Made by a program: the position numbers and the translations under genes. Below the pieces are notes generated by a model that did not search any database, was not told the origin of the DNA, and saw only the letters and a program-made list of their open reading frames with translations. A DNA stretch of 64,000 nucleotides, from the NCBI RefSeq assembly GCF_000746825.1, contig NZ_JQIV01000006.1:62001-126000 (forward strand), given 5' to 3'. Of this stretch, positions 15,767-50,550 are shown piece by piece. Position 1 is the stretch's first letter. Every line of letters begins with the position of its first letter. The stretch comes from Carnobacterium inhibens subsp. inhibens DSM 13024. GTDB taxonomy: Bacteria; Bacillota; Bacilli; Lactobacillales; Carnobacteriaceae.

Positions 15767-16037
15767 ATAAAAGGCAATGAACAAGAGGAGTAATTTTATT
15801 TGCTGACTTTGAGAGAATAGAACAGATGCTGAGAGTTCTTAGTCACAGTAAAATGAAGGTAGCTTGGGAGCTGGCAAAGTGAAAGTAAAGTAACTTTGTT
15901 CGGAGTAACGATCCGTTAAAAATGGAACTAAGAGGTATACTTTTGAAGATAGCAGAAGTATGCAATATAGGTGGTACCGCGAGTGAACAGCATTCGTCCT
16001 AATAATAATTTATTATTAGGATGGATGCTTTTTTTGT
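15767..16037 (+). promoter_or_regulatory. T-box leader of valS
   Basis: The T-box AGGTGGTACCGCG lies at 15969-15981, followed by a terminator hairpin (15990-16028, AGCAT..CGTCCTAATAATAA / TTATTATTAGGATGGATGCT) with a T run. The upstream region has the length and purine-rich blocks of Stem I-III. Uncharged tRNA should stabilise the antiterminator and allow valS transcription. I could not fix the valine specifier triplet by eye. Confidence 0.92.
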
Positions 16038-27078: not shown

Positions 27079-27863
27079 CAATCGTTATTACATCTGGTAA
27101 AGGTGGTGTAGGGAAAACAACTTCTACTGCAAATCTAGGTACAGCTCTTGCTCTTCAAGGGAAAAGAGTCTGTCTTATAGATATGGATATTGGATTGAGA
27201 AATTTAGATGTTATTCTTGGTCTAGAAAATCGAATCATTTATGATATTATCGATGTAGTGGAAGGTCGTACAAAACTGCATCAAGCTATCATAAAAGATA
27301 AACGATTTAATGATAATTTGTACTTGCTTCCTGCAGCACAAAATGCAGATAAAAATGATGTGAATGGTGAACAAATGATTGAAATCGTTTCTGAATTGAA
27401 AAAAGAATACGACTATATCTTAATCGATTGCCCTGCCGGTATTGAACAAGGTTTCCAAAATTCGATTGCAGCAGCAGACCAAGCAATTCTGGTAACCACT
27501 CCTGAAATATCGGCTATACGCGATGCAGATCGTATTATTGGTCTTTTAGAGCAAACGGAACTTGAACCTCCGCGTTTAATCATCAATCGTATTCGTAAAC
27601 GTATGATGCAAGATGGAGAAGTAATGGATATCGATGAGATCACTAGACATTTGTCGATTGATCTATTAGGAATTGTTTTTGATGATGATGATGTCGTTCG
27701 TTCTTCTAATAAAGGAGATCCGATTGTTTTAAATCCAAAGAATCCTGCTTCTCAAGGGTACCGTAATATTGCTCGTCGTATTTTAGGTGAAACAGTTCCC
27801 TTAATGACGCTAACCAAAGAAAAACCAAATTTTTGGCAGAAAATATTTGGCAAACGAAAATAA
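27069..27863 (+). CDS. minD: Septum site-determining ATPase MinD
   Basis: A 264-residue deviant Walker-A ATPase (TSGKGGVGKTTSTANLG), with IDMDIGLRNLDVILGLENR and DYILIDCPAGIEQGF. The C-terminal amphipathic helix (PNFWQKIFGKRK) is the membrane-targeting sequence. It recruits MinC to the membrane to prevent polar septation. No minE or minJ/divIVA lies in the window. The -35 of the following T-box promoter lies inside its last codons. Confidence 0.95.
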   Translation: MGIAIVITSGKGGVGKTTSTANLGTALALQGKRVCLIDMDIGLRNLDVILGLENRIIYDIIDVVEGRTKLHQAIIKDKRFNDNLYLLPAAQNADKNDVNGEQMIEIVSELKKEYDYILIDCPAGIEQGFQNSIAAADQAILVTTPEISAIRDADRIIGLLEQTELEPPRLIINRIRKRMMQDGEVMDIDEITRHLSIDLLGIVFDDDDVVRSSNKGDPIVLNPKNPASQGYRNIARRILGETVPLMTLTKEKPNFWQKIFGKRK

Positions 27864-27875
27864 CTGTGCTATAGT
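27847..27875 (+). promoter_or_regulatory. Promoter of the T-box transporter operon
   Basis: TTGGCA (27847-27852, inside minD), 17 bases, TATAGT (27870-27875) with a TGC extension before the -10. Confidence 0.75.
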
Positions 27876-27882
27876 ATTAAAA

Positions 27883-28169
27883 AATGATTAAAAGCTTTGA
27901 AGAGAAAAAGTAAGTTTAGAAACTTTTAAGAGAGATTGCGGTGCTGAAAGCAATCAAGGGTCTATTCCGAACACACATCTCTGAGCTGACAGTTGAATGC
28001 TTATAAGTAAACTGATCCGGGAGTACCCGTTATAGTACTAGCGTTTAGTAGTTTTGAACGTGATGAGGTAGTTTTCTGCGAAGAAGCTACGAATAAAGGT
28101 GGAACCACGATATTGATATCAATCGTCCTTTGATTTTCTTACTAATAGAAAATCAAAGGACTTTTTTTG
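27883..28169 (+). promoter_or_regulatory. T-box leader, specifier probably CAC (histidine)
   Basis: The T-box AGGTGGAACCACG is at 28097-28109; the terminator GTCCTTTGATTTTCT / AGAAAATCAAAGGAC (28125-28161) is followed by a T run, and AAAGG..CCTTT gives the alternative antiterminator. In the Stem I region GAACACACATCTCTGAGCTG fits the usual GAA-NNN-A specifier loop with NNN = CAC. Histidine control is thus inferred, in agreement with a downstream polar amino-acid transporter. Confidence 0.88.
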
Positions 28170-28231
28170 TTTTTAAGGACTGCAGCCTGAAGGCAAAATA
28201 AAATACAATAAAATTAAAAGGGGCGTTAAAA

Positions 28232-29029
28232 ATGAAAAATACAATGATAAAATTAATTTTAGGATTAGGATTCACAGCACTTTTAGCAGGTTGCAGCACG
28301 AATAAAGCCAATGTAGACTCATATGAACAAATTAAAGATGAAGGAAAATTAGTAGTGGGTTTAGACGATACATTTGCTCCTATGGGTTTTCGTGATAGTA
28401 ATGGAGACATTGTAGGATTTGATGTGGATTTAGCAAATGAAGTAGGTAAAAAATTAGACATAGATGTTGAGTTTCAAGCTATCGATTGGGCGCTAAAAGA
28501 AACCGAATTAAAGAGTGGGAATATTGATGTGATTTGGAATGGTTATACCATTACTGATGAAAGAAAAAAACAAGTTGACTTTAGTTCGTCTTATTTAGAA
28601 AATAGTCAAATTATTATTGTATTAGAAGACAGTAAAATCCAAACAAAAGAAGATTTAAATGGAAAAGTAGTGGCAGCTCAACAATCCTCAAGTGCGGTAG
28701 ATGCTATTAATGCTGATGAATCGAATATAGTAGATTCCTTTGCAAATCAAGAAGTGGTTCTGTATCCTTCAAATAATGATGTGTTCAATGACTTAGCATC
28801 AGGTAGAAGTGAAGCTATTGTAGTTGATGAAACATTAGGACGTTATTACATGAAACAAAATGCAGATGTTAGCTATCGTGTACTAGAAGATAACTTTGGA
28901 GAAGAAGAATATGCGGTAGGCATGCGTAAAGAAGATGATCAATTAGCTGAAGCTATTGATAAAGCGTTAGAAGAATTAAAATCAGATGGTACTTTTGATA
29001 AAATTTATGAAAAATGGTTTGCTGAATAA
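28232..29029 (+). CDS. Amino-acid ABC transporter binding lipoprotein 1
   Basis: A 265-residue family-3 solute-binding protein. The signal peptide ends in the lipobox LLAGC (Cys21), so it is lipid-anchored outside the membrane. Ligand-domain motifs: LVVGLDDTFAPMGFRDSNG, IDWALKETELKSGNIDVIWN and a second lobe starting at KVVAAQQSSSAVDAI. It belongs to the polar amino-acid group (His/Gln/Cys type). It is paralogous to the next gene, and the T-box specifier suggests histidine. Confidence 0.93.
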   Translation: MKNTMIKLILGLGFTALLAGCSTNKANVDSYEQIKDEGKLVVGLDDTFAPMGFRDSNGDIVGFDVDLANEVGKKLDIDVEFQAIDWALKETELKSGNIDVIWNGYTITDERKKQVDFSSSYLENSQIIIVLEDSKIQTKEDLNGKVVAAQQSSSAVDAINADESNIVDSFANQEVVLYPSNNDVFNDLASGRSEAIVVDETLGRYYMKQNADVSYRVLEDNFGEEEYAVGMRKEDDQLAEAIDKALEELKSDGTFDKIYEKWFAE

Positions 29030-29089
29030 AACGAGAAAATCAAATAACTAAAAAAAGAAAGTTTATAGAGTTTTAGGAGGAGTAAAACC

Positions 29090-29881
29090 ATGAAAAAAAT
29101 AATGATTAGTTTACTAGCTGTTTCATTCTTTATGATGGCTTGTGGCAACTCTAAAAAAAATGCAGCTGAAGAGATATTTTTAGGAGAACCTGGGGATACT
29201 TTTGTAGTGGGACTAGATGACACATTTGTACCAATGGGTTTTCGAGATAATGCAGGAAACTTAGTAGGATTAGATATTGATCTAGCCACAGAAGTTGCTA
29301 AAAGATTAGAATTGAAAATTGAATTCCAGCCGATTGATTGGGCGATGAAAGAAACCGAATTAAATTCAGGAAATATTGATGCTATTTGGAATGGGTATTC
29401 TATAACGGAAGAACGCAAAGAAAAAGTTGCTTTTAGTACACCTTATACAAGTGGAGGACAAATATTTGTTGTTTTAGAAGATAGCCCTATAAAAACTTGG
29501 GAGGATCTAAAAGGAAAAGTAGTAGCAGGTCAACAAGCTTCTAGTACTGTTAGTTTATTGGAAACTCATGAAAGTGGCATTATGAAAACTTTTGCTAATG
29601 GGGAAATTATTCAGTATCCATCTTATAATGATGTATTTAATGACCTTGATAGTAAAAGAAGCGATGCAATTGCAGTCAGTGAATTGTATGCCCGTTATAC
29701 GATGAAACAAAAAGGGGCAGAAAAGTATCGCATTTTGGATGAACGTTTCGCATATGAGGATACTGCTGTGGGTGTAAGAAAAACAGATACTCAATTTTCA
29801 GAAAAGTTAAATACTACGTTAGCTGAAATGGAAAAAGACGGAACATTAGATGAAATCAAAGATAAATGGATCACAGAATAA
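29090..29881 (+). CDS. Amino-acid ABC transporter binding lipoprotein 2
   Basis: A 263-residue paralogue of the preceding protein with lipobox FMMAC and the same GLDDTFVPMGFRDNAGNLVG and IDWAMKETELNSGNIDAIWN cores; the two differ throughout the second lobe. Two tandem receptors for one permease could widen the substrate range or affinity. AGGAGGAG precedes the ATG. Confidence 0.93.
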   Translation: MKKIMISLLAVSFFMMACGNSKKNAAEEIFLGEPGDTFVVGLDDTFVPMGFRDNAGNLVGLDIDLATEVAKRLELKIEFQPIDWAMKETELNSGNIDAIWNGYSITEERKEKVAFSTPYTSGGQIFVVLEDSPIKTWEDLKGKVVAGQQASSTVSLLETHESGIMKTFANGEIIQYPSYNDVFNDLDSKRSDAIAVSELYARYTMKQKGAEKYRILDERFAYEDTAVGVRKTDTQFSEKLNTTLAEMEKDGTLDEIKDKWITE

Positions 29882-29910
29882 ACTAATAGTAGGAAAAGGA
29901 TGAGTATAAA

Positions 29911-30546
29911 ATGGATTTGATTGCTGAAATAACGCCTAGTTTATTAGATGGGTTAAAAACAACATTGTTATTATTTTTAATCATAGTTATTGTAACTATC
30001 CCATTGGGGTTTTTAGTCGCTTGTGTACGAGTGTATGCTCCTAAATGGATATCTTGGATCATACAAGTTTATGTTTACATCATGAGAGGTACCCCATTGT
30101 TGCTGCAATTAATGGTCGTATTTTTCGGCTTACCACTTGTTGGAATAACTTTTGATCGCTTTTCAGCTGCCGTTTTCACATTCATCATAAATTATACAGC
30201 TTATTATGCAGAAATTTTCCGCGGTGGTATTTTGTCTATTCCAAAAGGACAGTTTGAAGCAATTAAAGTGTTGGGTATCGGGAAAATAAATGGGTTTAGA
30301 AAAATTATTATCCCACAAGTTATACGTGTTGTGCTGCCTTCTGTAGGGAATGAAGTGATTGCGTTAGTAAAAGATACCTCTCTTATCTATATCTTAGGGT
30401 TAGGAGAGTTATTGCGCGCTGGTCAAATTGCAGCTAACACATATGCATCTTTGATTCCATATGCAGCAGTTGGAGTAATTTATTTACTGGTGACAGGTAT
30501 AGTGACTTTAGCATTGAATGCTATTGAGAAGAAGTCTAATTATTAA
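29911..30546 (+). CDS. Amino-acid ABC transporter permease
   Basis: A 211-residue HisM/GlnP-type permease with about five membrane helices and the EAA loop YYAEIFRGGILSIPKGQFEAI, which contacts the ATPase. The MRGTPLLLQL segment is typical of polar amino-acid permeases. Only one permease gene is present, so the channel should be a homodimer. Gap of 29 bases to the second receptor gene. Confidence 0.94.
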   Translation: MDLIAEITPSLLDGLKTTLLLFLIIVIVTIPLGFLVACVRVYAPKWISWIIQVYVYIMRGTPLLLQLMVVFFGLPLVGITFDRFSAAVFTFIINYTAYYAEIFRGGILSIPKGQFEAIKVLGIGKINGFRKIIIPQVIRVVLPSVGNEVIALVKDTSLIYILGLGELLRAGQIAANTYASLIPYAAVGVIYLLVTGIVTLALNAIEKKSNY

Positions 30547-30560
30547 AGGAGAAGGTTAAA

Positions 30561-31235
30561 ATGGGATTGAAAGCAACGAACCTAACGAAAAAATTTAATG
30601 GAATAGACGTGATCAGAAATTTTGACTTCACTATTGAAGCTGGAGAAATTGTGACACTTGTTGGTGAATCAGGCACTGGAAAGACTACGTTAATGAGATT
30701 GTTGAACCAACTTGAACAAGCAGACAATGGAACAATCACCGTTGATGATCACTATTTATGTCGTGAAACTCCAGGAGGCAAAATAGAGTATGCCTCAAAA
30801 AAAGAACGCGTATCTTATAGCAATCAAATAGGTATGGTATTTCAAGATTATCAATTATTTCCTAATTTAACGGTTATGAAGAACTGTATCGAAGCACCAT
30901 TAGATCAAAAATTGATGACAAAGGAACAAGCCATTAAAAAAGCAGAATTACTACTTAAACAAATGAACATTTTAGATAAAAAAGATGTTTACCCAAGTAC
31001 ATTATCTGGAGGACAGCAACAGCGTGCAGCGATTGCCAGATCGATGATGCTCAATCCTAAAATTATCTGTTTTGATGAACCAACCTCAGCATTGGATCGT
31101 GATTCAGCAAACGAAGTAGGTAAAATGATTCAATCGATTGCTTCATCTGGTACAGGTATTTTGATTGTCACTCACGACATAGAATTTGCTGAAAAATTTG
31201 GAACAAGGGTAGTATCGTCAGATACATTTTTGTAA
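30561..31235 (+). CDS. Amino-acid ABC transporter ATP-binding protein
   Basis: A 224-residue ABC ATPase: Walker A GESGTGKTT, Q-loop MVFQDYQLFPNLTVM, signature LSGGQQQRAAIARSMM, Walker B IICFDEPTSALD and switch histidine VTHD. It powers the T-box-controlled importer. It is slightly shorter than many homologues (about 240) at the C-terminus. Confidence 0.94.
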   Translation: MGLKATNLTKKFNGIDVIRNFDFTIEAGEIVTLVGESGTGKTTLMRLLNQLEQADNGTITVDDHYLCRETPGGKIEYASKKERVSYSNQIGMVFQDYQLFPNLTVMKNCIEAPLDQKLMTKEQAIKKAELLLKQMNILDKKDVYPSTLSGGQQQRAAIARSMMLNPKIICFDEPTSALDRDSANEVGKMIQSIASSGTGILIVTHDIEFAEKFGTRVVSSDTFL

Positions 31236-31326: not shown

Positions 31327-31430
31327 GTTGTAAATGTGTAGCACCACAACTACAACCGCACTGGAATGAGTTTAAGTCCATAACGGCACTCATGATGGCG
31401 AGTCTAAGTCTAATAAGGAGGTGCGAAAGA
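31327..31430 (+). promoter_or_regulatory. L21 leader
   Basis: A 100-base structured leader with GTGTAGCACCACAACTAC, ACCGCACTGGAATGAGT and AACGGCACTCATGATGGCG before the rplU ribosome site. It corresponds in position and appearance to the L21 leader known in Firmicutes, thought to mediate ribosomal-protein feedback. Confidence 0.75.
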
Positions 31431-35937: not shown

Positions 35938-36174
35938 AAAAAGCCATTCAATTAAGAATGACTTTAAAAGTTTTAAACTTTAAATGAGAAATCCGATGAT
36001 GCCGTTATTATGCTCAGTTAGTATTGAACCCGCAGTTAGCAGGTGGGCTCCGCTGTCAAGCTTCTAACTACCAAGTGAAAAGGCATGTTATCCGTTTGAA
36101 TCAGGTTGGATCCCAAGGTAATATTAATTGTTCGGTCAACACATGTTGAGCAAGACGAACATCTCAGAAATCTT
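35938..36174 (-). ncRNA. ssrS: 6S RNA
   Basis: A structured, non-coding segment of about 235 bases on the minus strand, directly upstream of the small membrane gene and downstream of rarA. It has a consensus promoter (TTGACA-17-TAATAT) and an intrinsic terminator (GCCATTC..GAATGAC, then T run, 35937-35962). The halves are complementary over long stretches, as in the 6S rod with central bubble that mimics an open promoter and traps RNA polymerase. Position next to rarA/yrvN matches the Bacillus bsrA locus. Boundaries are estimated. Confidence 0.8.
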
Positions 36175-50312: not shown

Positions 50313-50318
50313 TTAAAC

Positions 50319-50550
50319 GTACTAAGGATAAATTCATTTGATCTCTTGTTTAAAGAAAAGTTTTCCTAGGCTGAAAGAAAACTAACAATATTAAATCAAT
50401 GCTCCCTTATTGAAATAGTAGAAATACTATCGTTTCTCACGTTATCGAGACTTAAGAGGTAATGAACGGTCGAATGACATCATTGCAAACAAGGTGGTAC
50501 CGCGATTATTTTCGTCCTTGTCTGGCAATGTTGTTGTTGGACTTTTTTTG
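50319..50550 (+). promoter_or_regulatory. T-box leader of alaS, weak terminator
   Basis: T-box AGGTGGTACCGCG at 50492-50504. Antiterminator AACAAGG..CCTTGT is extended by CATTGC (50481-50486) pairing with GCAATG (50525-50530). The usual competing terminator is poor: GTCC..GGAC only, although a T run follows (50543-50549). A candidate specifier GCT occurs at about 50401 (CAATGCTCCC), fitting alanine. Confidence 0.88.

Follow-up and report, generated by a model that had tools for sequence, protein, structure and literature searches.

A 64,000-nucleotide stretch of the Carnobacterium inhibens subsp. inhibens DSM 13024 genome (contig NZ_JQIV01000006.1, positions 62,001 to 126,000 of the forward strand; hereafter the window) carries a T-box leader ahead of an ATP-binding cassette (ABC) importer operon in which two lipoprotein receptors are encoded with a single permease and a single ATPase. 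In the current study, comparative analysis indicates that the leader is specific for histidine and that the second receptor lacks the lobe-2 Asp with which related receptors hold the alpha-amine of their ligand, while the Arg that binds the carboxylate and the side-chain contacts are kept. The explanation that we favour, with a probability of approximately 0.55, is that a histidine T-box controls an importer whose second receptor would bind histidine modified at the alpha-nitrogen.

The leader RNA, from stem I to the antiterminator, is matched by the Rfam covariance model RF00230 at 27888-28133 on the plus strand (125.1 bits against a gathering score of 93; E 2.7e-27). It is followed on the same strand by genes for receptor 1 (28232-29029; HisX1-like lipoprotein with the alpha-amine Asp present), receptor 2 (29090-29881; HisX2-like lipoprotein with Ser197 in place of that Asp), a HisY-like permease (29911-30546; BPD_transp_1, PF00528) and a HisZ*-like ATPase (30561-31235; ABC_tran, PF00005). 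Both receptors belong to SBP_bac_3 (PF00497) and have N-termini of the lipoprotein type, ending AGC/MAC. All defining parts of a HisXYZ* importer, namely SBP_bac_3, BPD_transp_1 and the ABC ATPase, are thus present behind a histidine-specific leader. An initial annotation of this DNA had placed a T-box upstream of the transporter, which the RF00230 match above the gathering score and the terminator described below uphold, and had described two lipoprotein receptors sharing one permease/ATPase set, which the two PF00497 matches and those to PF00528 and PF00005 confirm, coordinates included.

Leader architecture and specifier

The antiterminator (28095-28131, plus strand), located from the sequence and the Rfam alignment, contains the T-box bulge GGTGGAACC at 28098-28106, with UGGA at 28100-28103, and its pairing was read by eye as AAAGG/CCTTT and ACGAT/ATCGT. 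It overlaps at 28125-28131 with an intrinsic terminator (28125-28161, plus strand), found in the sequence and by folding, which comprises a 15-bp stem followed by seven T residues, and the two structures are hence mutually exclusive. The fold energy of the terminator stretch is -25.4 kcal/mol, with a z score of -4.66 relative to shuffled sequences. By analogy with the family, the leader would bind uncharged tRNA-His and switch as a transcription-attenuating T-box. A promoter-like TTGGCA-17-TATAGT element with a TG ahead of the second hexamer (27847-27875, plus strand) is a candidate by virtue of its position, since such matches are no commoner across the region (10) than in shuffles (mean 14.8).

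The specifier lies within GAACACACATCTCTGAG, which begins at 27969 and in which CAC occurs twice. The second occurrence, at 27974-27976 on the plus strand and followed by an A, falls in a column that is invariant in 37/37 aligned leaders (the window, 15 other genomes of the host's family and 21 further loci), while the first, at 27972-27974, is not preserved among them (GAAAACAC, GAAATCAC). The same triplet is reached from the host's own genome, which has 18 T-boxes in total: the cognate codon lies 6 nucleotides before GAG in 13 of the other 17 and 6 nucleotides before an altered triplet in the serS and alaS T-boxes, the leuS and pheS T-boxes having it 7 nucleotides before GAG (gene names were assigned by eye from the downstream protein sequences). 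This 6-nucleotide rule identifies CAC at 27974-27976 as the specifier, and the Rfam alignment, run as a covariance-model check, likewise puts CAC in the specifier. Among 23 later leaders, some from organisms already represented in the 37, CAC was found at 6 nucleotides in 18 and at 7 nucleotides in one (L223), the remaining four having no anchor. The host has tRNA-His(GTG) genes (L051, L060) matching such a specifier. The histidine codon read in the initial annotation therefore stands, with a correction of register from the first CAC to the second.

A register one base upstream would make the specifier ACA, a threonine codon, and the 7-nucleotide spacing of leuS and pheS, used by two of the 17 other T-boxes, would give this triplet here. 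The last base of the UGGN motif (A in 30 of the 37 leaders, G in five and T in two) is also consistent with such a shift in that the bulge A fails to pair with the discriminator base C73 of tRNA-His. However, histidine T-boxes are a stated exception to discriminator pairing since C73 can be paired (PMC7778990), so that this pairing is unusable as a test of the specifier and does not define histidine T-boxes, and A73 of tRNA-Thr(UGU) fails to pair with the bulge A as well. The threonine register moreover yields TCA in the leaders of Trichococcus and Granulicatella, whereas CAC is retained throughout, and the receptors of the importer resemble a protein whose structure is titled as histidine-bound (4ohn). 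Based on the invariance of CAC, the spacing rule and A73 of tRNA-Thr(UGU), the threonine register was dismissed as extremely improbable.

In the host's own genome, the hisS T-box (L013; C6:374024-374235) has the aspartate specifier GAC and not a histidine one, and hisS would thus answer to aspartate and the importer to histidine.

Pocket residues of the two receptors

Pocket positions were derived by sequence alignment of 113 receptors (L106 and L107 being left out as copies of L091 and L094), with columns anchored to E. coli ArgT/HisJ and with two MAFFT modes in agreement. At the column of Asp161 of LAO/HisJ, Asp is present in 18/18 first receptors of tandem operons and in none of the 18 second receptors, seven of which have Ser and 11 Gly there. 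All but one of the 75 solitary receptors have Asp, and in Ruoffia (L185) the first receptor has Asp and the second, permease-fused one has Ala. Ten ligand contacts of LAO are listed in Table 3 of PMC5740067, and eight of these (11, 14, 52, 69, 70, 77, 117 and 121) do not differ consistently between receptors 1 and 2, position 121 varying between Ser and Ala among first receptors. Only positions 161 and 72 shift, and it is these two that hold the alpha-amine of the ligand in LAO and HisJ (PMC4192606). Position 122 is likewise altered, Gln122 of LAO being bonded to Asp161 (PMC5740067), and the carboxylate arginine, Arg77, is retained in receptor 2. The placement of LAO Ser92 was not used, as MAFFT pairs it with an invariant Gln whereas hand placement puts it one residue earlier.

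The proposal that the receptors differ mostly in lobe 2 was only partly sustained: overall identity hardly bears it out (60% for lobe 1 against 54% for lobe 2, with lobe limits drawn by us), while the few changed pocket residues are indeed mostly located in lobe 2. Judged from the alignment, receptor 2 is a paralogue that has been retained and has diverged, keeping the carboxylate Arg and the side-chain contacts but losing the lobe-2 Asp. Among five tandem genomes the ratio of nonsynonymous to synonymous substitution rates (dN/dS) lay at 0.064-0.123 in receptor 2 (nine pairs, a tenth not being computable), indicating purifying selection similar to that on receptor 1 (0.054-0.127; ten pairs), dS being near saturation in these comparisons. 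A structure model of receptor 2 built from 84 sequences reached a predicted local distance difference test score (pLDDT) of 91.8; an earlier model from seven sequences (mean 39.3) was discarded.

An order-wide census extended these observations. Searching 295 genomes gave matches in 69 at E 1e-60, 38 stretches were scored, and 149 receptor domains remained after the removal of nine duplicate loci. W52, N69, G70, R77 and Q117 are invariant over all 149 domains, while Gly or Ala occupies position 72 in 27 of the 36 domains without Asp161 and in one of the 113 with it (Fisher p 7e-21, not to be read as a true probability given the kinship of the sequences). Fusion to the permease is frequent among the clamp-less domains, giving proteins of about 485-520 aa, and in L201 and L202 two clamp-less domains and the permease are contained in one frame of about 770 aa (L202:2182-4497), a GlnPQ-like single-protein architecture in a histidine-type importer.

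Concerning the nature of the ligand, the structure 4ohn of a Streptococcus pneumoniae substrate-binding protein, titled "with Bound Histidine", is the best solved sequence relative of receptor 2 and the third for receptor 1; it has the same fold as receptor 2, but according to the alignment it keeps the Asp. The NCBIfam HisJ equivalog model scores below its cut-off for both receptors (102.0 bits for receptor 1 and 95.3 for receptor 2, against 459), a result which is no test of the Firmicutes HisX group because the model describes enteric HisJ. NCBIfam gives no specificity otherwise, as among the matches listed (for the ATPase, the best 25 of 190) all but one permease domain model are below cut-off.

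Candidate ligands of the second receptor

Control of hisYZ*X and hisXYZ* importers by T-box(His) elements in Firmicutes has already been described (Ashniev et al. 2022, PMC9413887; also PMC2494555). The present locus shares with these systems a histidine T-box ahead of an ABC importer of the polar amino acid type, but its gene order, X1-X2-Y-Z*, is unlike either arrangement, and Table 3 of PMC9413887 has no Carnobacterium for this target and the text consulted from that paper makes no mention of receptor pairs. What is already known is thus the T-box(His) control of HisXYZ importers, and neither paired HisX receptors nor the loss of the amine clamp was found described in the open-access literature searched.

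The riboswitch signals which amino acid the cell is short of and thereby narrows the possible ligands of both receptors. When histidine runs low, both the CAC at 27974-27976 and the UGGA bulge would pair with tRNA-His, the antiterminator would form at the expense of the terminator, and the hisX1-hisX2-hisY-hisZ* importer would be made. Receptor 1, with its full amino-acid clamp intact, would take free L-histidine, which its homology to 4ohn makes its most likely ligand. Receptor 2 would recognise a histidine-like ligand in another manner at its alpha-amine and pass it to the same permease, its most likely ligand being histidine with a substituted alpha-amine, such as an X-His dipeptide or acyl-histidine. 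The suggestion in the initial annotation of unequal affinities, or of a related compound as ligand, is plausible, and the pocket comparison would narrow the latter to a compound altered at the alpha-amine.

The case for a ligand without a free amine is based on the loss of amine contacts with retention of Arg77 and the side-chain contacts, on a parallel with NocT and on mutants of GlnPQ. NocT, which is without the clamp pair at residues 161 and 72, is described as binding nopaline, an N-substituted arginine, but not Arg, His or Orn (PMC4192606). As in receptor 2, the Asp161 clamp is lost in NocT and OccJ (Ser72 also in NocT) and the carboxylate arginine is kept, although these are arginine-opine receptors of Agrobacterium and distant in sequence. 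This trait of opine receptors, loss of Asp161 with Arg77 kept, is seen in receptor 2 (Ser197), while the signature Gly97 of NocT (LAO position 72) is not, the receptor 2 of the window having Ser there like OccJ; membership of receptor 2 among opine-type receptors is not claimed. The GlnPQ variants SBD1(E184W) and SBD2(D417F) fail to bind ligand (PMC8025302), and by our count on the 6h30 alignment both substitutions map to the Asp161 column.

Several observations weigh against this reading. The window's receptor 2 retains Ser72, as do LAO and HisJ, so that one of the two clamps is lost and position 72 is amine-competent, and the GlnPQ substitutions introduce bulky residues rather than Ser or Gly. 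In OccJ (Asn161, Ser72) the binding of octopine is independent of that Asn and arginine is still bound weakly, and histopine, the histidine opine, is the worst-bound of the set for both NocT and OccJ (PMC5740067). In addition, in genomes of the Aerococcaceae type a permease-fused clamp-less receptor is the sole one found at some T-box(His) loci (L175, L213-L215, L217, L218 and L222), three of which are in genomes with hisD and others in genomes without it; a lone clamp-less receptor under a histidine T-box fits a receptor able to supply histidine alone.

The retained Ser72, the weak binding of arginine by OccJ and the lone clamp-less receptors would also suit a second L-histidine receptor of other affinity, in which the amine would be held by Ser72 and backbone groups and loss of the Asp would do no more than tune affinity, as would the side-chain pocket that is the same in both receptors. 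This account is credible, with odds well short of even: Asp161 and the Ser/Thr72 hydroxyl are lost jointly in the census, NocT without that pair binds none of the free amino acids tested with it (PMC4192606), and a change of affinity alone would not call for one and the same column to be altered in every second receptor. We consider it unlikely that the ligand of receptor 2 is some other free amino acid, by which the range of the importer would be broadened in the manner of E. coli MG1655, in which HisJ and ArgT are annotated as sharing HisQMP. That system has the same arrangement of two receptors of one SBP family for one membrane complex, but both receptors keep Asp161 and the permease consists of two different proteins. 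To our knowledge, the E. coli system is without a T-box. The tandem SBD1-SBD2 of Lactococcus GlnPQ likewise provides two receptor domains per translocator, and these differ in specificity (PMC8025302), but in GlnPQ the domains form one fusion protein with the permease, and an acidic residue is retained at the Asp161 column in either domain. In the present receptors the side-chain contacts at 11, 14, 52, 69, 70 and 117 are equal and the amine contacts change, which is the opposite of what a new side-chain specificity would entail. That receptor 2 binds no ligand and is decaying or serves as a spacer is more improbable still: the bulky GlnPQ mutations at the Asp161 column do abolish binding (PMC8025302), but receptor 2 is intact in 18/18 aligned tandem loci, its dN/dS is about 0.1, and Arg77 and the other contacts are retained.

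Histidine with a substituted alpha-amine thus remains the ligand that we favour for receptor 2. More tentatively, and with less than even probability, T-box(His)-controlled importers of Lactobacillales may comprise a second class of histidine receptor, with the amine clamp removed as in NocT, which would import histidine modified at the alpha-nitrogen (carnosine and other X-His dipeptides, N-acyl-histidine, or histidine of the Amadori or opine type) through an ordinary permease and which, in some lineages, would be fused to the permease and replace the free-histidine receptor. The unchanged side-chain pocket, the lost amine clamp and the histidine T-box together frame a sharp question, namely what ligand a clamp-less histidine receptor takes. 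Should the proposal hold, it would represent a route from amino-acid receptors to modified-amino-acid receptors beyond the opine systems and would provide a reason for keeping two receptors per permease in these bacteria.

Distribution of the receptor pair and other RNA elements

The receptor locus was found in 16 of 18 genomes of the host's family, with a T-box directly upstream in 16/16 and with two receptors in eight of the 16; receptor pairs in the same order were also found in Jeotgalibaca and Trichococcus. In phylogenetic trees, the second receptors of the Carnobacterium type and of the Trichococcus type fall into two groups, and on the more careful tree the Asp state has to change twice, although a single clade of second receptors was not rejected (p-AU 0.258). 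One locus, L110 (MUZD01000003.1), is labelled Sedimentibacter sp. SX930 and has a Trichococcus-type operon with receptors nested within Trichococcus in the tree; its organism label or assembly may be wrong.

Neither hisB nor hisD was found in the genome to which the window belongs, which is consistent with a need for histidine uptake. Both genes are absent from 8/8 two-receptor genomes of the family and present in five of the ten others (Fisher p 0.036, uncorrected for kinship). In Trichococcus with the receptor pair, hisD was found in six of seven genomes searched, the seventh (L114) being a 1.9 Mb assembly, and because the link between the receptor pair and auxotrophy breaks down there it was not relied upon.

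Some of the leaders are themselves duplicated or may be so. Two successive T-boxes precede the fused receptor-permease gene in L217 and L218, and L219 and L221 have two GGTGG-type sites each. In the host's own genome, tandem methionine T-boxes lie ahead of a gene for a MetN-type ATPase (L015 and L016; C6:1968317-1968908).

Two further T-boxes lie in the window on the plus strand, one at 15768-16004 (132.1 bits) ahead of valS, with the valine specifier GTA according to the 6-nucleotide rule, and a weak one at 50313-50522 ahead of alaS, with the specifier GCT, which at 76.1 bits is below the Rfam gathering score and is thus absent from the gathering scan. On the 3' side of the importer operon there is a separate L21 leader at 31344-31415 and, farther downstream on the minus strand, a 6S RNA at 35986-36173 (72.9 bits).

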